DNA of 64,000 nucleotides, from contig NC_018394.1 of the NCBI RefSeq assembly GCF_000208865.1, positions 4,467,797-4,531,796 of the forward strand. The letters run 5' to 3'. Positions within the stretch are counted from its first letter, which is position 1, and each line of letters opens with the position of its first letter. The notes under the pieces were generated by a model. That model was given only the letters and a program-made list of their open reading frames with translations. It made no database searches and was not told the origin of the DNA. Of the stretch, positions 2,121 through 63,257 are shown one piece after another. Source of the DNA: Neospora caninum Liverpool (taxonomy: Eukaryota > Apicomplexa > Conoidasida > Eucoccidiorida > Sarcocystidae). Made by a program: the position numbers and the translations under genes.

Positions 2121-4536
2121 TCCGTAGCGAGAACAGGAGGCAGCGCGAGGGACCTCCTCCAGCAAGACGGCAGAGGTGAAAGACTCAGCCGTCGAGCGGG
2201 TGACTCTTCTCAGAACGCATTGAAAGAAGCTCCAAAGCCGACGAGTCGCAATTCCACAAAAAACCCTCAAGAGTGCCGCCCCTCTCGACGAGGCGAGTGA
2301 TCCTTCTGTTCCCGGCCATGCACAGAGTTTCTCCCGGCGTCGCGAAAGGCCGATCGACGGTTCGAGAGGCGCGGGAAGAACACGAAGATTGGGAGAGAGC
2401 AAGCAAAAAATGGTGGGGGGGCTTGGTCGTGAGGAGAAAACGTGCAGGCGGAGAGAAGAGGGAGAAAGGAGGAAACTTGGAACATCGCGGAGTCGCTCGT
2501 GTGCAGAACGAAGTTTGTAAGTTTCTCCAAGGCAGGCCGGAAGAGCCTCGGGTCTCTCTGCTCTCTCCCTTCAATCTGGCGATTGCTCCTCTGGGCGTCG
2601 ACACTCCCCTCCAATACACTGTCGGTCCGCGCGAGGGGCCCTACAGAGTCGGCGGCTTTTTTCGCACATCCCTGAAGACGTACGGAAACGCCTCGCAGCC
2701 ACGGAGGAAGCCAACTCGTGAAAGCGGAAAGAAGTCGACAAGAAAAAGCGGGGAAACGTGCCAGGCCGGGACTCGCAAGACGGGCGTGTGCATGTATGCG
2801 CCTCAACCTTCTCGCTCAAAGCGACACAACGCCCGCAGATTAAAGACTCTCGTGGGTTTACAAGGTCGTATGAGGCGTCTCGCCGTTTAAAAAAAGGTGG
2901 GCAACGATCCGAGACACGACGGGGAGAAAAAACAGAAAGGAAAGATCCGGAAATATCGGAGCGACCGAGCGGCGTTCTCTCCACTTGTCTTCTACTCCGC
3001 GCGTTGTCTCGTCGATCGGCAACGAACCCCCCCGTTTCTGCACGAGACGCGTCCCTCCTTGCTGCGGCTCGAGCAAGACCGCAAGTGAACGCGGACGGTG
3101 AGCGGGGTCGGCAAAAGAAACGAGAGGGAGGAGTCCTTTGCAGAAACAGAGAAAATCCGCAGAAAAGGCGGCGAGTGCCAGCTGCAAGCGCTCCCTTTCG
3201 ATTTTCGCGTTTCCACAAAAAACCTCTCCCTCCGAAAAGTGTCCGTACAGGCGAAAGCGGGACGAAGCACACGCCGGTTCAGTCGGTCGCTTGCCTTCTC
3301 TGTGGCGGACTGGCCTCGAGTTGAGCGTTTTTTCCCTCTGGTGCCCGCGAGGGGCGTTGCATTTTGGCGGCTTACTCTTTCTGCTTGTTGTGGGCGATTT
3401 TTTGCGCGAGTTTGCTTTCCACTGGAGCAGACGCGCGCCTCTTTTGACTGATTAGCGGGCGCAACGACACCAGCGGTCTGGGGACTCGCCGCGAACAGCT
3501 GCCGAAACGGGCGGGAACACATCAGATATTATAAAAAGCAGTGGGAAGGGGAAGAGCCGTTTCAAAAGATTCATTCAAAAAGCGCCGTTATAGCGGAGGT
3601 GAAAAATCGCCCAACAAAAAGAGCGAGGCCTCGTAGCGTTCTCTGTGTGTCCCCCGTCTCTCTGTATGTGTAGTTTTCTCCCGCTCCCCTTCCGCCAGCC
3701 GCGGGAGCTCTCTTTCACCTTGCTCTCGACGGGTTCAGGTGCGGCGACGCATAGGCCAGTGGAGCATTCGGCTTTTTCCTTCTTTTGTGTCTTTTCAGAG
3801 CTCTTTCCGCGGTTCAGTGTTCGAAAAACGCGCGCTCGGTTTCCTGGTGACGCCGAAGTCTGGGGCGCCGCCTGCCTCTCGCTTTCTAGCCCTTGCTTTC
3901 TGGCTCTTGCTTTCGAGTGAGAGCGAGACAGAACTGCTGCGTGCACCAGTCAATGAGCAATGCAAGAGCCGCTTCGTCCTCCGCCTTTCGTCCTCTTTCT
4001 GCCTCAGAAATATTGTTCTTGAGAGACAGAGAAGGCGCTGTGTTCCCCCGGTGTCGCCTCGGGATCGAGCAGGAGCTGTCTTGAGGAGTTACGGCGAGCC
4101 GTCTCCCAAAAGGCGAGGCGTCTCCGCCGTCGCCGCTGGCGAGTTTGGTTGTACACGCAAAAGATAGGGCGTGGAAACGGTGAAGGGGACCCTGCGTGCC
4201 AGGCAGAGGCCTTTCCACTGTTTCTTTTCTCGTTCCGTCGTTTCGCGCCTTCCCCCCCCCGTTCGTTCTCCGAGAGCTGGACTGCCGCTGCCTTCGTCGG
4301 CCGAGACAAACCATCGGCATATCGAGGCATGGCAAAATTCGGCGTTTCCTCGAAGTGTCCGCACTTCTTCCTGCTCCGCCTTTCCGGTTCTGTCTCCCTT
4401 TTGCCTCTCTTCTCCCCTCACGCCAGGTCTTCCCCTTTGGCCTTCTGTGCTGCCGCGCCTAGCCTCGCTGTCTTGCCTCCCCTCTCCTCCGCTTGGAGGT
4501 TTCCTCCTTTGCTCCTCGTCGCCTTCTTGCCACACA
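2121..4536. promoter_or_regulatory. Divergent intergenic region between FolD-like and Ser-rich genes
   Basis: About 2.4 kb between two divergently oriented start codons, so it probably holds both promoters and 5' UTRs. The open frames here are Arg/Ser-rich on both strands, lack conserved motifs and mirror each other. I see no TATA box, which is normal for this group. No specific factor site is claimed. Confidence 0.4.
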
Positions 4537-50667: not shown

Positions 50668-52323
50668 TTACAGCACCTTGGGGACTTTCTTTTTCCTCAC
50701 ATACATGAACAAAAGAAGCCCTTCGTTGACGGCCGCAAAAATGAGGCACAACACTGTCATCGTGTAGAACCCGTTGTCAACACTGTATTTTCTCATGGGG
50801 TCGGTCACAAGCGAGATAATACCCCCCACTGAGCATAAAAACCCGATCATCTTTCCCATATTTTCTGGCAGGAAGACCTCGGCAACGTAGCAGTAGATTT
50901 GCGAAACCAAGAACGACATTTGGATGGAAATGAGAATCGACACAATGAACTGCGAAGCGACAAAGCACGGGATTCCCGGGATTAACATGAGGATCCAGGA
51001 GATAAGGCCGCAGCTGTTGCAGATCATCATGACGGGGACAATACCAACCCGGTCGGCGACCCATCCCAGCAGGATGCACGGGACAAACGAGAAAATGGAA
51101 ATGATCTGGTTGGCCTCGTACGCGCTGGGGATGAGACGCTTCGCCGACGGCGCAAAGAAAAGAATCGCAATCAGCACCAGGACGAAATACGGGAACAGGG
51201 GCAAGAACGAGAGAGACAGGAAGTCGCGCTTGATCGACTGAACTGCCGTCAAGTTCTTCTCCTGCTTGACCAAAGCGTCGGCCCCCGCCTCGACATCGTC
51301 CTCCGAGGAGGCGCTCGCCGGCGCGTCAGGTGCCATCCAGGCCTTACTCGGGATGATCAACACGGCAACGAGCACACACAAACCCAGCCCCACACCAACA
51401 TAGCCTAGCATGACGCCCCGGAACGTCGCTCCCTCTACGTTCATATAAATGGTCCGGAGCGTAACGCCGACAATGAAGGAGATCGAACGGAAAGAACCCA
51501 ATATAGCGATGATCGTCGCACCCTTCCCCGGGAACAGATTTGCTCCGCACAGGCACGGGAAAAACGCCATGTCAATGCCTGCTCCCATCAACACCGCCGC
51601 CGGCACGTACGCTCGGAAGCTCTCGGAGGAGAGCCCAAAGAGAGTCCACCCGACAACCAGGCACGCAAGGCCGGTGAATGCACCAAACTTGGGGCCAGCA
51701 AAGTCCAGCATGATACCTCCGAGCATCGCAAACACGAAATACGAGCACGACGCAACAGTGAACAGGTAGTTCACAGAGATCTCCTGCTCGGGGCATTTCG
51801 GCTCGTGGGAAAGAACCGTGAAGTCAATCTCGCCGGGTTTGCACTCCCACTCGAAAGCACCCGACATGTAGAGAGAGTCGGCAATTGTTGTCCAGTTCAT
51901 GAAGGACGGTCCAGAAAGCAGACAGTACAGGCAGTAGGCGACCAGAACAACATAACGCGACAGGCCGAACGCAACACGCGGAACCGCAGTCTCCGAACCC
52001 TCCAGCTGTCCTTGCGCCTTGGACACCTCCTGGTTCGGGCATCCGACTTCGAAGCTGGAAAGGCTCGCGCCTGCAGTCTGTAAACAACAGCAAGAAACCA
52101 CCAAATCGGCGACGCTGGCGAGAACTGCTCTTGCTTGGCCGCGCTCCGGTTTCCACAACGCCGGCACGATGCCACCTGTCTGTCCGTGAAGAGGACAACC
52201 TCTGCTGCAAAAAGCATCACACCTTACCGCTTGGTTCGCCAGCTCCATGCTTTTCGCTCGATCTCCCGAGCTCAGCCCCTCCTCCACCGCGTTCTTTGCC
52301 GCAACGTGCGTCGCGTCAGTCAT
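50668..52323 (-). CDS. ApiAT-family (major facilitator) amino-acid transporter, two exons
   Basis: ApiAT proteins are apicomplexan plasma-membrane transporters for amino acids and other nutrients. Exon 1 52323-52228 encodes MTDATHVAAKNAVEEGL and ends at GCG|GTAAGG. Exon 2 52077-50668 starts after TTTACAG and gives TAGASLSSFEVGCPNQ. Both are phase 0, for 501 residues. I chose ATG 52323 (GCCGCCATGAC) because the longer frame opens with TTG and its extension is Arg-rich leader. The core shows 12 predicted membrane helices: YVVLVAYCLYCLLSG is first, then YFVFAMLGGIMLDFAGPKFG (the MFS loop 2-3 motif region), LMGAGIDMAFFPCLCGANLF and IIAILGSFRSISFIVGVTLR in the first half. After an acidic cytosolic loop (residues about 275-300) come FPYFVLVLIAILFFAP through TMTVLCLIFAAVNEGLLLFM. 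A basic tail RKKKVPKVL ends the protein. The large extracellular loop 1 with Cys residues is typical. The individual ApiAT subgroup is not assigned. Confidence 0.87.
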   Translation of the reverse strand: MTDATHVAAKNAVEEGLSSGDRAKSMELANQAVRCDAFCSRGCPLHGQTGGIVPALWKPERGQARAVLASVADLVVSCCCLQTAGASLSSFEVGCPNQEVSKAQGQLEGSETAVPRVAFGLSRYVVLVAYCLYCLLSGPSFMNWTTIADSLYMSGAFEWECKPGEIDFTVLSHEPKCPEQEISVNYLFTVASCSYFVFAMLGGIMLDFAGPKFGAFTGLACLVVGWTLFGLSSESFRAYVPAAVLMGAGIDMAFFPCLCGANLFPGKGATIIAILGSFRSISFIVGVTLRTIYMNVEGATFRGVMLGYVGVGLGLCVLVAVLIIPSKAWMAPDAPASASSEDDVEAGADALVKQEKNLTAVQSIKRDFLSLSFLPLFPYFVLVLIAILFFAPSAKRLIPSAYEANQIISIFSFVPCILLGWVADRVGIVPVMMICNSCGLISWILMLIPGIPCFVASQFIVSILISIQMSFLVSQIYCYVAEVFLPENMGKMIGFLCSVGGIISLVTDPMRKYSVDNGFYTMTVLCLIFAAVNEGLLLFMYVRKKKVPKVL

Positions 52324-55932: not shown

Positions 55933-58900
55933 CTAGCTGCCGTCACGCTTTTTCAACCTGCTGAAAAATCCTTTTCCTTTGCCCGCCTTGGCTCCGGATT
56001 TTGACAGGGGAGCAGCTGAAGTAGGCTGAGAAGATATCTGACCCACTGAGTAGGCCCTGGCGAGCGGTGGATGGCTTCCCTCATCGTCAGAGCTCCGGGA
56101 TGGAAGCGGACGAAGACTAGCCGATTTTATGTGGGTGAGCACGCCTGGTGCGAGACTTTGGTCATGATACCGGTGGTCACTCGAATAACCCATGGTGAGG
56201 TCTTCACTTGAGTCAATATCATATTCGTTAAGGCTGCCGTTACTGACGGCCGGCGACGGTGTAGCTGGGATGAACATGTATTCATCTTCCCCATCCCATG
56301 CATTTCTACCAGGGCGGCGCCCCGGACTCGGGAGATGATGTGAAGCCACCCCTGGTCCTGTGGATGGCGTGTGACGTGCTCCATCAGAAGCTGGCGTGGG
56401 AGGGGTTTCTGCAGGCGGCGCGGCCCCAGGCTGCTGCTGAGCGCGCTCACCCCTCGAAAGCAGGCCGCGGAACAACGGCGCACCCTGCGGCAGCCACGCA
56501 TACAGCAAAAGAAGTCAACGCTCCACGGGAGTGGCAGATGGGGGGGGGGGGGGGGGGTACGGACACCCTTGCACTTTAGGGGCTTGCTGTTCGGCTAGCT
56601 TACAGAGCGTAGGCACTCTGCGTAGATCCGCGCGTGACGCACAGCTGTTCGACTTCCCTCGACTGTCTGCAGGGGGCCTAGTCTTTCAGTCTACAGGAAT
56701 CATCTGCCACGGAATGCGTTATATGAACGACAGACCGGCAGCACCTGGACAAAGGCGCAAGACTTCCCCACCGACTCTTCAACACTTCAACACCCCCCGA
56801 CACACGGGACAGCAAGGACTGACTACTCCGCTTCAATTTCTAAGGCTGGCCCAGGACAGAAGAGAATGCCTCTTCTTTCCAACACCACCATTCCCTCTTA
56901 AAATCCCGTAGACTGCTAGGCACTCGTAAAAACTCTGTCCACTTCAGCACTCTGCCTTGTTCGAGAGACAGGCACTCTGTTCAGCGCAGAGGGACCACGA
57001 TGCAGACAAGCGGCCAGTGCACAGCGGACCGGCATTGTGTTCGGGTGTACAGACTCGACACGAGCAGTGAGGCGTCGCTCTGTCCTCGCGCCCGTAAAAC
57101 ACACACCCCAAAAGGAACACGGGCTGCCGAAAAGAGGCGCATCGAAGCACGCACGGCCACCTGCCGTTTCGTTCCCTCAGGAACATCGCCCCGGTTTGGC
57201 CACACAACCCCCTGTTGCAAATGCGTCCTCTGTTCTGCTACATGACTGCACTTTGAAGAGGTGGACTGTCTGTAGCAGAACAGAACACTTACGACCTGAA
57301 GAACATCACAAAGACCACAACCAATACATGTGCTACCGCCATCCAGGGCGACCGACACATACAATGGCCACGACAGGCCAGCTGTTGTGCAAGATCGAAG
57401 GGAACGAAGAAGCCCGTCGGGAACGAAAAAAACTGCCGTGAAGCTCTTTCAACAGCCACACACAAGCTTTGCTCGGGGCACTGTTTAAGGGCCGGTTTCC
57501 TCGCAAATCCAACGTCTCTGTCCGCAAATTGGTTCTGCAACATCGCGTTGCCGTGGAAGAAACCAGACGTGTGCACATACGGCTAACGGCACACAGGAGG
57601 GTCCGGGCAATCGTGAAGAAACGACTCTTGGACCAGGTGCTCTTCAAAAGTAAGTGCGCGTCGGCACTCCCTTTTTTTGCTCCACAGGGAAGGCCATTCA
57701 CGAAGTGGGTACGGTCTCTCTCGACCCCTACGCAGATCTTCGGCATCGCTCATCCACAGAAAAAATCGACATTTCCACTCAGTGACAGCACGACAGACCG
57801 AAAACCACTTGGTTCGGCACCGCAGCCTATGCCAGCCTGCGTTGCAGGTCGCTTCCCGAAGCAACGTCCCTTTTGTACAGAACAAACATTCGATGCGACT
57901 GCAAGGCGACAAAGATTTCCTTCACCGGAGAACGTACCAACTGGACGCCGGAAACAAAGAAACCAACCCGTCACGTTGTCCTCGTCCAAACGCCGGCTAC
58001 ATGGTCGCTTGGCGAAGGCACCCAAAAAAGGTGTATACAGCCTCACACCCAGAGTGCTACGTAAAAAACAGATAGCATCCAGCGACAAAGGCAAATCGAT
58101 GGATTCTACATCGACGCTGGAAGTCTGTAGATGGATGAAAGGGGAGTCCGACAGCTCGGCGACCGGACACGAAAACACAAATGAACGCTCTTCTTTCTTC
58201 ACTCTCTCCAGGAGTGATTTCAGAGTAACAAATAACGGAGCTCTCGACCGGCTACCGCTAAGCTGACGCGCTGCAGACTCACCACCTATATTCAAGGGCA
58301 CAGAGAGGACCCAACACTTGTTCTACCTTGAGTCGTCAGCACGGAATTTGCGCACCCCCGAAACCCCATGTTCCTCACATATTTGAGTTTCTGGTCCCTC
58401 CACGCACCCTAGTACCTAAAGAAACATATTAGTCTATGTGCCCACAGAGCCCTGTATAATCTACATGGAGGATTTTACGTATATTCATGCCAGCATGAAA
58501 GCGTCGGTGTGCATAGGGTGTCCTCGTGATCTCTTTAACTAGGAAAGGTTTCGTGACGTGATACCCGCCACCCGGGCGCAACAGGACCAGGCCGCCACGA
58601 CCAAGAGCCCAGACACGGAAGATTTCAGTTTCCCTGTTTATCTACGTTGGCACGGACGTGTCCGACGTAACGTTCTTGTTATTAATTGCTCGAGACTTAC
58701 AGCCTGAGAGTGAGGGCAGCGCGTGCGCATACCAGGGAATTCGACTTTCACCCTGTCGGACGCAATCCGTTTCCCACGCATCTGGCCCTCTTTCCTTTTC
58801 CGCAGGAAAGACTTTTCGCGAAGAACCTGAACGCGGAAAATAGCGTGGCGGAAACCTCCCACGCTCCCCCTGCAGACCCTCAACAGCTTCTGGCCTTCTG

Positions 58901-61900
58901 AGGAAATGAAACATGGACGTTTCTCTCTTTCTGAACGCCTCCAGGGAACTCACCGCCTGACGATTCCCAACACGCAGAAGTACCGAAAAAATCTTTGTCA
59001 TACATGCACGCGAAACTCCCGGGCGGGTTCTCCTTACACGCACGTGTTTTTGGCTACGCCTCCAGACCTCGGGCTTCCACACCTCCCAGTTGCCCAAAGA
59101 CATCTCTTTCACGGGTTGGGGCTCCACAGACGCACTCCAGACGCTACATAATGATGTTTGCCTACGCGGAAGGCGGTTCGCGAATTTTCACTTTTCGTTT
59201 TCCGAAGCCGTCAGTTCGACCTTCCTGCATACACTTCTTCATATCTGCACACTAGACGCGCTTTCCTCGTGACCAGAATCGTGGCCATGCAAGTCTCCGA
59301 TCTGGATCCTTTTTCCGGGTTTGCTGCTGAGAGACACTCGGGAGACTTACCACAGTGGCAACCTGAAGAAAAGAAAGAGGTGGGACCACGACACGCCATA
59401 GCCCCTCGTGTTTGATGAGCTCTGAAAACGGGGCAGCGTTCGACTCGCTCCAAAGGGGCATGCACACAGAGAAGGTGGGCACAGACGTCCTCGCGTCTGG
59501 ATAGGTCTGGGCCACTGCACGCTCGTCCTTCTTTTATATGGAGGCAAATCGCGACAAGGCGCAGGTCTACACATGGGTGATTCTGAAATGAGACCCCAGA
59601 CATGCCCGCTGTCGCGCCGCTAGCTCTGTTTTTGCACGGCCTTGCAGCGAGAAATGAAACAGCTTTTAAGGTCGGCAGAACAGGTAACCTCCCGGGAGGG
59701 TCAGTCCTCCCCGCCGTTAGCCTTTCTTCTCTCACCGACTGCCAGGGTATCTGCATGAACACCAGCAAAAACCAGAGCAGAAAAAAGCATCCGGCAGACA
59801 GTCCCTACAGTCGGCAGAGCAACAAGACCGTTGGAAACGGAGTTGAAAGGACAACCAGAGAGAAGCATGAACGAACAAACCTCGACAGATGCAGCTCTCC
59901 AGAGAACGTCATTGAACACCACGGTTGGTTTGCGCATTACCGAAGAAATCCGCGCTCTTGCTCAGGCGCGCCAATGTGAAGCGAGAGGCGTGGGGCAGCT
60001 AAGCAAATGTCCAACTCGGGGAAAGCGTGGTGAAGAAGACATACAGGCAAAGAACAACATCTACCTCTATTTATCAGGACGGACACGAGTAACACCTTCC
60101 ACCCGGAGAGACACACGATCCCAAAAAAAAGCGGGCCACAGGAGAGAAAGGCAAGGCAGCGAACCAGAAATACACGACCGATGTTGCAGAGAGAGGGAAC
60201 GCCTACCTTATCTAGCACAGATTCAGTCTCCGCCGCCTGAGAACAATTACGAACACGCACTCAACAAGCAGGGATTAGGCATGGTCCTTGACACGTCCAC
60301 AGCTCACACGAGCTAAAAAATACCCGACCAGAACCCCACACCGATGTCAGCTAACGCCAATCCTGAACCGTTCTCTCTGGCTGAAAGCGCCGAAAGCGCC
60401 GCCGTATAAACCAACCTAGGTAAAGATCCACATACCTTGGGCGTCTGAGGTTCGAAGCAGACACAGATCCACACGGATACACAATGGGGCACATTGTCTC
60501 ATCTGTTAGCTAGCAATGATCCAGAACCCCGTCCTCTCTAGATGAAAGCAACGAACCCATTCCCCGTATAAAACAAGCTCGTTATAACACTACGTACCTC
60601 GGGCACCTGATTGTCGAAACAGACACACATCCACACGGATACACAATGTGACACACCATGATAGAGCATAGCTAACGACAATCCAAAATCCTTCTTCTAT
60701 GTGGACACAGCCAATGCTTCTTCGTTCGACACAGCTAGTTAAAGCATCACATACCTTGGGCGTCTGAAGTGCGAAACAGACACAGATCCACACGGATACG
60801 CAATGGGGCACATTGTCTCATCTGTTAGCTAGCAATGATCCAGAACCCCGTCCTCTCTAGATGAAAGCAACGAACCCATTCCCCGTATAAAACAAGCTCG
60901 TTATAACACTACGTACCTCGGGCACCTGATTGTCGAAACAGACACACATCCACACGGATACACAATGTGACACACCATGATAGAGCATAGCTAACGACAA
61001 TCCAAAATCCTTCTTCTATGTGGACACAGCCAATGCTTCTTCGTTCGACACAGCTAGGTAAAGCATCACATACCTTGGGCGTCTGAAGTGCGAAACAGAC
61101 ACAGATCCACACGGATACGCAATGGGATACATTGTCTCATCTGTTAGCTAGCAATGATCCAGAACCCCGTCCTCTCTAGATGAAAGCAACGAACCCATTC
61201 CCCGTATAAAACAAGCTCGTTATAACACTACGTACCTCGGGCACCTGATTGTCGAAACAGACACACATCCACACGGATACACAATGTGACACACCATGAT
61301 AGAGCATAGCTAACGACAATCCAAAATCCTTCTTCTATGTGGACACAGCCAATGCTTCTTCGTTCGACACAGCTAGTTAAAGCATCACATACCTTGGGCG
61401 TCTGGAGTTCGAAACAGACACAAATTCATGCGGATACACCATGGGCCATAGTGTCGGGAGGCTCTAGCTGACCGGGGCAGCGTCGGAAGCTATCTTCTGC
61501 TTGAGGTTTCTTCGCAACGTTTTGTTTGTGCACGAGTGTGTTGCGTCTTACCGGGGGGACGATATGGGGAGGGCTGGCGGGGGTGTCCTGCGGAAGAGCA
61601 CAGACACTCCAGGTAGCAGGGGGATACACTCCGCAGGGAAGGGGGAGAGTCTATTTTAGAATACGACACAGGAGAGGCAACGCGTATCGCTTCGCTGAGG
61701 GAGCAAAAAGTATCGTTTTTCAGTTCAGGAAGACAGGCAGAGAGAAGGGAGACGTACAGGCTGCGTCGCTGTGTGCGGCTGCAGAGACCAGCCACAACGA
61801 AGGAAACGAGGGTTATTGGTGACAAAGCCTCGAAGAAAAGAATGCTGGACGTACTTTGTGGACCGGCTCCGGCTAACGTACAACGATGCCCCCAAAGACT

Positions 61901-63257
61901 TCAACGTGTTCTCGCAGCTGCGGCAGAACGAGAATCCGCACATTTTTGAACACGCAATGAAACACCTGCAATTCTTTGTTCAGGCATAGAAAAAGGACGG
62001 AAGCCGTCTTTTGGTCCATTGTGCATGCGTTGAACTCCGGAGAACACACACACACACAAGACGCAGACAGAGCCCAGAGACCCGCTGTCTCTTCATCCAT
62101 GCAACAAACTCCAACAGTTCGCAGCGCTCGCCACAGGGACAAGCGACGACGAGCGGATGCCATAGAAAGGCAGTTTCGCCCGCACCAGCCGTTGTCTCTC
62201 CATTCGTTGTGGAAATTCGACCTTCTGGAAACTGCAGTGACTTACAAGCGTTGCGTACTGACAAGAGAAACAGGAAGCGGCGGGGGAAGAATCCGTGGGG
62301 GAACACGCCAGAAACAAAAGTGCCTGTCAACTTACAACGGCCCTTGCCGCCGTGTCGTCGCTCGTCGTTTCTGCTTCCCGCGTAGTTTCGTGGGGTATTC
62401 CTGCGGCTCATGTCAGCCTCATTCGTACGCGAGAGGTCCCACGTGCTTGTCGCTGTCTTGTCTCGACGCTGTGTCTGTGTCTCTGTCTCCCTGGCTACAC
62501 CGCATCTCCTACCTGTGCTCGCCCCTCTGTTCCACTGCTCCACCAACACGTCCCACCCTTCTTTCGACAGCAAGCAGAGACTTACGAAGACTGCGACGGC
62601 GATCCCCACGCCAGCGATGGTGAGGCCAAGAACAAGGGGTGTAACGTCCTGAGAACATCACAAGACAACAACGCGAGCGTGAAGACAGGGAGCAGCTCAG
62701 TCTTCATAGTCGCTTGCAGAGAAGCCGAAGGGCCTGCCTTGGGGTATGCGTTGCCTCTACCGCCTCAGGCGCGGACACTGCCGCATCCGCACGCGCCTCG
62801 AACAACTCAAGCTGTAAGGTCTGCCTGCTTACATCCCTCTTTGGCCGCTGTGGAACAAGAAACACAGAAGAGAGGCGAACGGACATAAGCGCGTTCGCCT
62901 TCCGAAGAACCTACGATCCCCACACGTCACTCGCATCCCTGCTCCAGAAACCGCGCGCTGGAACTTTCGTTCGGTCCCCTCGCGCAGCCGCCTCCGCGTC
63001 TGGCTCAACACCGCGCCCCAGCGTTTGCGCACACCCAACAGGCCTGTGCACTGCCCTTGCTGCGGGGCGGGGTTGCAACGCGCTGTTCCGTGTTACGGAA
63101 AGACAGCCCCCGCGGCTGAAGCGCGCCGCTTCGCTCTGCCACGAAAGTAGCAGCCGAGAACGCGAAAAAGCTACAGCCACACGACTCGGCAGAAAACGCT
63201 GCGCCACACGCGAATCTCTCCAGAGAGCCTTACGGGGGGAGGCCGCTCTACGCGGAG
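55933..63257 (-). CDS. Candidate micro-exon gene encoding a membrane protein with TPK/VPE repeat
   Basis: Terminal exon 56484-55933 (184 codons; PETPP-like Pro/Ser region, DEYMFIPATPSP, ending FFSRLKKRDGS) follows acceptor GCTGCCGCAG. Upstream on the minus strand are short segments between splice consensus sites: 63257-63234 (LRVERPPP); 62847-62761 (RPKRDVSRQTLQL to SAPEA, strong TTGTTCCACAG acceptor); 62648-62586 (TM segment LVLGLTIAGVGIAVAVF, TTCTCAG...GTAAGTC); 62400-62336 (basic tail EYPTKLRGKQKRRATTRRQG); 62257-62246 (12 nt); 61917-61882 (LREHVEVFGGIV); 61778-61758 (PHTATQP); 61587-61552 (DTPASPPHIVPP); seven 9-nt exons 61401-60436; 60236-60207 (AAETESVLDK); 59750-59736 (IPWQS); 59362-59351 (VATV); and four 3-nt candidates. 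Nearly all are multiples of three. The 62336-62400/62246 pair leaves phase 2, so at least one boundary there is wrong or skipped. The 5' end may lie beyond 63.3 kb or outside the window. Topology would be single-pass with a basic and Pro-rich cytosolic side. Confidence 0.4.
56540..56557. repeat. G18 homopolymer (C18 on the coding strand)
   Basis: Eighteen consecutive G. On the minus strand this is a C tract about 55 nt upstream of the terminal-exon acceptor at 56485, so it lies in the pyrimidine-rich part of the last intron. Confidence 0.95.
60431..61401 (-). repeat. 319-bp dimeric tandem repeat carrying 9-nt micro-exons
   Basis: The landmark CATACCTTGGGCG recurs at 60431, 60750, 61069 and 61388, exactly 319 bp apart. 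Within each unit a diverged half-unit starts CGTACCTCGGGCA at 60593, 60912 and 61231 (162 + 157 bp). Both half-units share TCCACACGGATAC and a downstream AGC(A)TAGCTAAC-like block. On the minus strand every half-unit has a pyrimidine-rich acceptor, 9 nt, then a donor: CAG|ACGCCCAAG|GTATGTG or CAG|GTGCCCGAG|GTACGTAG. Unit 1 and unit 2 are nearly identical, so the dimer duplicated recently; the two halves are older. Confidence 0.9.
60436..60444 (-). other. Candidate 9-nt micro-exon (Thr-Pro-Lys), most 3' copy
   Basis: ACGCCCAAG between GAACCTCAG and GTATGTGG. Further Thr-Pro-Lys copies lie at 60755-60763, 61074-61082 and 61393-61401; Val-Pro-Glu copies (GTGCCCGAG) lie at 60598-60606, 60917-60925 and 61236-61244. 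The resulting introns are 153 and 148 nt alternately. Read in order on the minus strand, the exons give TPK-VPE-TPK-VPE-TPK-VPE-TPK. Confidence 0.45.
62586..62648 (-). other. Candidate exon encoding a transmembrane helix
   Basis: 63 nt between GATGTTCTCAG and GTAAGTCTC. In phase 0 it encodes Asp-Val-Thr-Pro followed by LVLGLTIAGVGIAVAVF, a full-length Gly-rich membrane helix; the other two phases give non-hydrophobic Pro/His/Arg text. This phase choice supports the phase-0 reading of the gene model. Confidence 0.5.

Follow-up and report, generated by a model that had tools for sequence, protein, structure and literature searches.

Seven 9-nt blocks, each framed by a splice acceptor and a splice donor, form a tandem array on the minus strand of the genome of Neospora caninum, a parasite of cattle and dogs. 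On balance, this array probably belongs to an unannotated membrane-protein gene composed of symmetrical micro-exons, which would resemble the micro-exon genes (MEGs) of schistosomes, would have arisen independently of them, and would owe its proline-rich stretch to duplication of an intron together with a micro-exon. The locus displays a tandem repeat, conservation centered on splice sites, a cluster of short acceptor-donor pairs whose lengths are multiples of three (3n), and one chain of exons open in phase 0. The window analyzed is a 64,000-nt stretch at contig positions 4467797-4531796 of N. caninum Liverpool, and coordinates follow its numbering unless another contig or flank is named. Genome-wide searches covered the 57.5-Mb genome (14 contigs).

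The array spans 60436-61401 on the minus strand, with TPK and VPE alternating in phase 0. All seven blocks consist of CAG, 9 nt, and GT; four copies of ACGCCCAAG (A) alternate with three copies of GTGCCCGAG (B). The underlying 319-bp tandem repeat has 3.2 copies with a 97% match (60416-61445) and a half-period of 162 bp, and the distances between successive 9-nt exons alternate between 148 and 153 nt. The initial annotation, which had described seven alternating minus-strand AG/9-nt/GT blocks in the same register within this repeat, was therefore correct on each of these points. The predicted micro-exons, in the order of the minus strand, are as follows:

61393-61401, minus strand, micro-exon A1, ACGCCCAAG (TPK), acceptor 4.4, donor 7.0
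61236-61244, minus strand, micro-exon B1, GTGCCCGAG (VPE), acceptor 4.2, donor 6.3
61074-61082, minus strand, micro-exon A2 (TPK), acceptor 5.1, donor 7.0
60917-60925, minus strand, micro-exon B2 (VPE), acceptor 4.2, donor 6.3
60755-60763, minus strand, micro-exon A3 (TPK), acceptor 5.1, donor 7.0
60598-60606, minus strand, micro-exon B3 (VPE), acceptor 4.2, donor 6.3
60436-60444, minus strand, micro-exon A4 (TPK), acceptor 3.1 (the weakest of the array), donor 7.0

Splice sites were scored with a generic consensus taken from general knowledge and not trained on Neospora, and the background sample was 284 kb of the same chromosome on both strands (568 kb of strand sequence). Matrices from a retrained gene finder were kept out of all splice-site scoring. 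The output of the self-trained gene finder was dropped because too many exons were predicted; the ab initio gene finder left out the 9-nt exons. Within the sample, the array donors lie at the 99.77 to 99.93 percentile of all GTs (the top 0.07 to 0.23%), and the array acceptors lie at the 91 to 97 percentile of all AGs. At the weakest scores of the array, no AG-9-GT pair beyond the seven was found in the 284 kb on both strands, while pairs of other lengths (3 to 39 nt) numbered 10. On the same scale, the annotated intron of the adjoining MFS transporter gene (52323-50668, minus strand) has a donor of 5.3 and an acceptor of 7.6, compared to which the array acceptors (3.1 to 5.1) are weaker. This single 150-nt intron lies at 52227-52078; joining at 52228/52077 gives the annotated Neospora MFS transporter protein exactly, and the transporter has relatives in Toxoplasma, Besnoitia, and Cyclospora. 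Among the matches listed, which are the best candidates scored, the genome contains no paralogue of the array elsewhere, and all other matches to it overlap or adjoin it. A search of the 284 kb for old copies of the module core likewise recovered the seven alone; the next-ranked hit has an E value of 0.34.

It had also been proposed that the 9-nt length and the flanking AG/GT are under constraint, since both are kept in half-units that diverged elsewhere. Comparison of A with B bears this out: 43 of 53 positions (81%) are identical in the splice core, defined as 35 nt before CAG through 6 nt past the exon, versus 63 of 109 (58%) in the rest (Fisher P = 0.005, for a core that was chosen after inspection). 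An ordinary intronic minisatellite with no conservation linked to splice sites does not fit this difference, although with a post hoc core other causes of conservation are possible. Within the 9-nt exon, six of nine positions are identical and the three changes are all non-synonymous in phase 0 (Thr to Val, Lys to Glu). What is kept is therefore the spacing, the splice sites, the preceding pyrimidine-rich stretch, and the central proline, and not the peptide. At the end of the array, copy A4 retains an intact exon and GTATGT donor next to a downstream flank that has diverged and is of another type. The three B copies are identical over the 171 nt aligned and thus do not constitute independent evidence.

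These observations bear on a rather unlikely alternative, according to which the repeat is a minisatellite inside one long minus-strand intron and the AG-9-GT blocks are pseudo-exon relics skipped by the spliceosome. Recent homogenization of the tandem repeat, array acceptors of moderate strength only, and exon letters that are not conserved between A and B are what such relics might look like. The better preservation of the A/B splice core than of the rest, the retention of exon and donor in the end copies, and the clustering of further micro-exon-like pairs on the same strand argue against it.

When the minus strand around the array was assessed, further exon-like segments could be assembled with the 9-nt blocks into a predicted chain:

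64229-64109, minus strand, first chain exon, just outside the window, preceding RPKRD
62833-62847, minus strand, candidate 15-nt micro-exon RPKRD, acceptor 6.2, donor 4.6
62586-62648, minus strand, candidate 63-nt exon DVTPLVLGLTIAGVGIAVAVF with a predicted membrane helix, acceptor 5.8, donor 3.6
62246-62257, minus strand, candidate 12-nt micro-exon YATL, predicted to complete the helix, acceptor 7.7, donor 4.9
61552-61587, minus strand, candidate 36-nt exon DTPASPPHIVPP, phase 0, acceptor 6.0, donor 6.0
60207-60236, minus strand, candidate 30-nt exon AAETESVLDK, with an open frame in phase 0 alone, acceptor 5.7, donor 5.9
59351-59362, minus strand, candidate 12-nt micro-exon VATV, acceptor 11.3, donor 6.7
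55933-56484, minus strand, possible terminal exon, an open frame of 183 codons plus stop, Pro/Ser-rich, with a weak acceptor (2.2) and an uncertain link to the chain

The predicted order would be MSSASQDGSWESTV-RPKRD-DVTPLVLGLTIAGVGIAVAVF-YATL-DTPASPPHIVPP-(TPK VPE)x3-TPK-AAETESVLDK-VATV-..., and peptides such as VPETPK and TPKAAETESVLDK are predicted from it. The gene would extend on the minus strand from about 64.2 to 59.3 kb, with its 3′ end possibly at 55.9 kb; an alternative reading of the VATV exon runs on to a stop. The chain of 14 exons is open throughout in phase 0 and comprises 91 residues from a Met in the first exon. Thirteen of the 14 exons are no longer than 63 nt, and all 13 of these are 3n in phase 0, a balance that the possible 552-nt last exon would shift. 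Phase 0 itself had been assigned in the initial annotation from the array, and here the claim stands on different grounds: the 9-nt exons alone cannot set the phase, since neither the 9-mers nor the 36-nt exon contain a stop in any of the three phases, and phase 0 was chosen because the downstream 30-nt exon is open in phase 0 alone.

Joined together, the 63-nt and YATL exons would encode a hydrophobic helix across their junction, whose best 19 residues reach a KD value of 2.32. This value is matched by 345 of 69853 (0.5%) stop-free 25-residue segments, a per-segment rate to be read against a 91-residue chain that offers several such segments. The 63-nt exon has a longer alternative form that reaches a donor at 62513 and ends in phase 1. 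A gene using this donor would read the downstream exons in phase 1, with DAQ/GAR triplets from the array and a stop inside the 30-nt exon; we regard it as highly improbable. The 62513 donor scores higher (5.9 versus 3.6) and the longer reading is open, but the helix completed by YATL, the 30-nt exon that is open only in phase 0, and the pattern of symmetric exons would all be lost.

The codon scores of the predicted phase-0 chain provide a weak coding signal: the exons from RPKRD to VATV total about +6 (YATL not scored), and the first exon scores −1.8. The possible last exon is neutral in frame (−1.5), versus −82 and −24 in the other frames. Weak codon scores and the lack of a protein match to either query model described below would suit micro-exons that are spliced yet untranslated, in a non-coding RNA or an untranslated leader. 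We judge this clearly unlikely, since all the array exons and nine of the 12 neighboring pairs are 3n, phase 0 alone is open throughout (most of the chain exons, taken singly, are open in all phases), and the joined chain gives a membrane helix.

To estimate the density of short exon-like segments, acceptor-donor pairs of 3 to 66 nt were counted on the minus strand of 55933-66391 outside the array, at thresholds of 5.5 (acceptor) and 3.5 (donor); thresholds and region were set after the first exons had been seen. Twelve such pairs are present, nine of them of length 3n. Elsewhere, 1014 windows of equal size, overlapping and taken from both strands, gave a mean of 2.39 pairs (maximum, 7) and of 0.91 3n pairs (maximum, 4). 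None of 200 dinucleotide shuffles reached 12 pairs, and the plus strand of the same region contains 2. At thresholds of 5.0/5.0, 5 pairs remain; the windows elsewhere contain at most 4, and 5 is attained in 2 of the 200 shuffles. The chain makes use of six of these 12 (RPKRD, the 63-nt exon, the 12-nt YATL, DTPASPPHIVPP, AAETESVLDK, and VATV). The other six, of 10, 8, 37, 30, 3, and 3 nt, lie outside it; some share a site, and three of them are not 3n.

The pair counts bear on an extremely improbable reading in which splice-like matches arose by chance in a repeat of other cause and the minus strand carries no gene. The splice consensus is generic, the region and the thresholds were chosen after observation, and the codon scores are weak, all of which chance would allow. 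Against it stand a clustering at 5.5/3.5 that exceeds all 1014 windows and all 200 shuffles and the conservation of the splice core. Overall, the splice-like architecture, the constraint, and the comparison with MEGs put forward in the initial annotation are supported, and the strand appears richer in micro-exon-like pairs than it had noted; on the other side, coding bias is weak and no protein match was found.

The pattern TTTCNNCAG-N6-36-GTAAGT matches the genome 40 times, the VATV exon being among the matches, and a reversed control pattern matches 50 times. Matches to this pattern are therefore not generally real exons, and what is notable about the VATV exon is that it lies 1 kb from the array. 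A broader short-exon pattern gave 517 matches genome-wide versus 813 for its reversed control, so strong short pairs are not commoner than in the control. Two sets of short-exon pattern matches are identical: on C12, at 4368267-4368301 and 4369824-4369858 on opposite strands, and on C14, at 6246196-6246226 and 6294872-6294902 on the same strand. Their pairing suggests local duplications.

Protein searches were run with a 436-amino acid (aa) model and a 152-aa query, both of which preceded the final chain, and an annotated protein shorter than 240 aa that shares the micro-exon chain alone would escape them. In a database that includes Neospora, Toxoplasma, and Besnoitia, no protein was found at E ≤ 1 either for the 436-aa model (candidates of about 240 to 763 aa) or for the 152-aa query (candidates of about 84 to 266 aa). 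Among the matches listed, the 436-aa model has no paralogue in the genome; its five protein matches are all at this locus. Pfam searches of eight open frames yielded only the MFS transporter. With stops masked, the three minus-strand frames of 55-64 kb had no match, and those of flank L004 had one, below the cutoff (DUF6525, E = 0.09). Rfam gave no match in 50-64 kb. A J-domain (Pam18-like) assignment of the membrane exon was dropped because no Pfam match was obtained. Among the entries listed by text searches for Toxoplasma gene numbers near the MFS transporter, none could be tied to the candidate gene.

The locus may be transcribed and all the exons may be spliced, and the product would be a single-pass membrane protein with a proline-rich tail. 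The ancestral module would have consisted of a 3′ splice site, a 9-nt exon, and a 5′ splice site with an intron of ~150 nt. Duplication of this module would have produced A and B, which then diverged, and the AB pair would have been amplified via unequal exchange. Every such exchange would gain or lose whole introns together with whole codons. Since the frame is kept when any symmetrical exon is skipped, length variants, if they are made, would be free of a frame cost. Tentatively, and short of calling it probable, we propose that an apicomplexan possesses an independently evolved micro-exon gene in which germline copy number and exon skipping would change the proline-rich tail in three-residue steps. 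On this equally tentative reading, MEG-like systems would not be confined to flatworms, and the amplified unit would include the intron.

In excerpts of two papers, MEGs are characterized by many very small symmetrical exons that make up most of the coding region (PMC4350168, PMC4015677); in the first of these excerpts they are apparently restricted to platyhelminths and all carry a signal peptide (PMC4350168). Compared with schistosome MEGs as so described, including the 10-3 antigen (MEG-4), the candidate gene would be similar in that very small symmetrical exons form most of the predicted coding chain, in that a membrane anchor is predicted, and in that skipping or duplication of an exon would be frame-neutral. 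It differs in that it comes from an apicomplexan, would contain seven 9-nt exons in an amplified intron-exon module, and is predicted from genomic sequence. As to the signal peptide or membrane anchor, a helix is predicted across two exons, and a signal peptide–like stretch lies upstream, unjoined in phase. The origin in N. caninum is not platyhelminth, and no sequence relation to MEGs emerged at E ≤ 1 from the two early queries, though a sequence this short and skewed gives little power. We therefore do not class the candidate gene as a MEG, and the likeness is one of architecture. Judging by its title, another study, cited in PMC4015677, reportedly concerns 81-base exons of S. mansoni that are repeated in tandem.

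Titin PEVK exons are likewise small, in-frame, and rich in Pro, Glu, Val, and Lys, and they vary the length of an extended segment; they are longer than the exons predicted here, and common origin is not implied. Plants and vertebrates splice micro-exons that range from a few nucleotides to about 27 nt and that, unlike those of the array, are usually single and without tandem amplification together with introns. In the coding minisatellites of apicomplexan antigens, unequal exchange alters the repeat number in the protein, but the repeat lies within one exon, whereas here the 319-bp repeat would hold two introns and two exons. Among the papers listed by full-text searches for micro-exons with Toxoplasma, Neospora, and apicomplexans, no title or abstract opening describes a comparable gene, and the Toxoplasma and Neospora transcriptome papers PMC3543268 and PMC4395442 contain neither “short exon” nor “small exon.”

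If the array is spliced as predicted, a MEG-like architecture would be convergent in an unrelated parasite, and introns and 9-nt exons could be amplified together as a module of protein length, each copy altering the protein by three amino acids. Gene finders and RNA aligners, which perform poorly with exons below 10 nt, may then miss such apicomplexan genes. The array would also provide a natural test of how the spliceosome defines seven successive 9-nt exons.

Several other stretches were observed around the putative gene. At about 66117-66395 on the minus strand (L004:2117-2395) lies an open, exon-like stretch of 93 aa with a hydrophobic, signal peptide–like start that includes PALLLVFLALVLEFGVRRVSS; it is not joined in phase, and among the genome matches listed it occurs at this locus only. 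Immediately upstream of it, two copies of a 59-nt stretch match at 73% (L004 flank 2477-2535 and 3873-3931). A membrane helix–like stretch, also not joined in phase, is located upstream of the chain at about 65.1-65.0 kb. On the plus strand, across from what may be the 3′ part of the gene, an open frame of 274 aa without a Pfam match occupies 57442-58266. Further along, at about 75-83 kb, the gene-finder output includes minus-strand exons that were recognized by eye as similar to a CDP-alcohol phosphotransferase.
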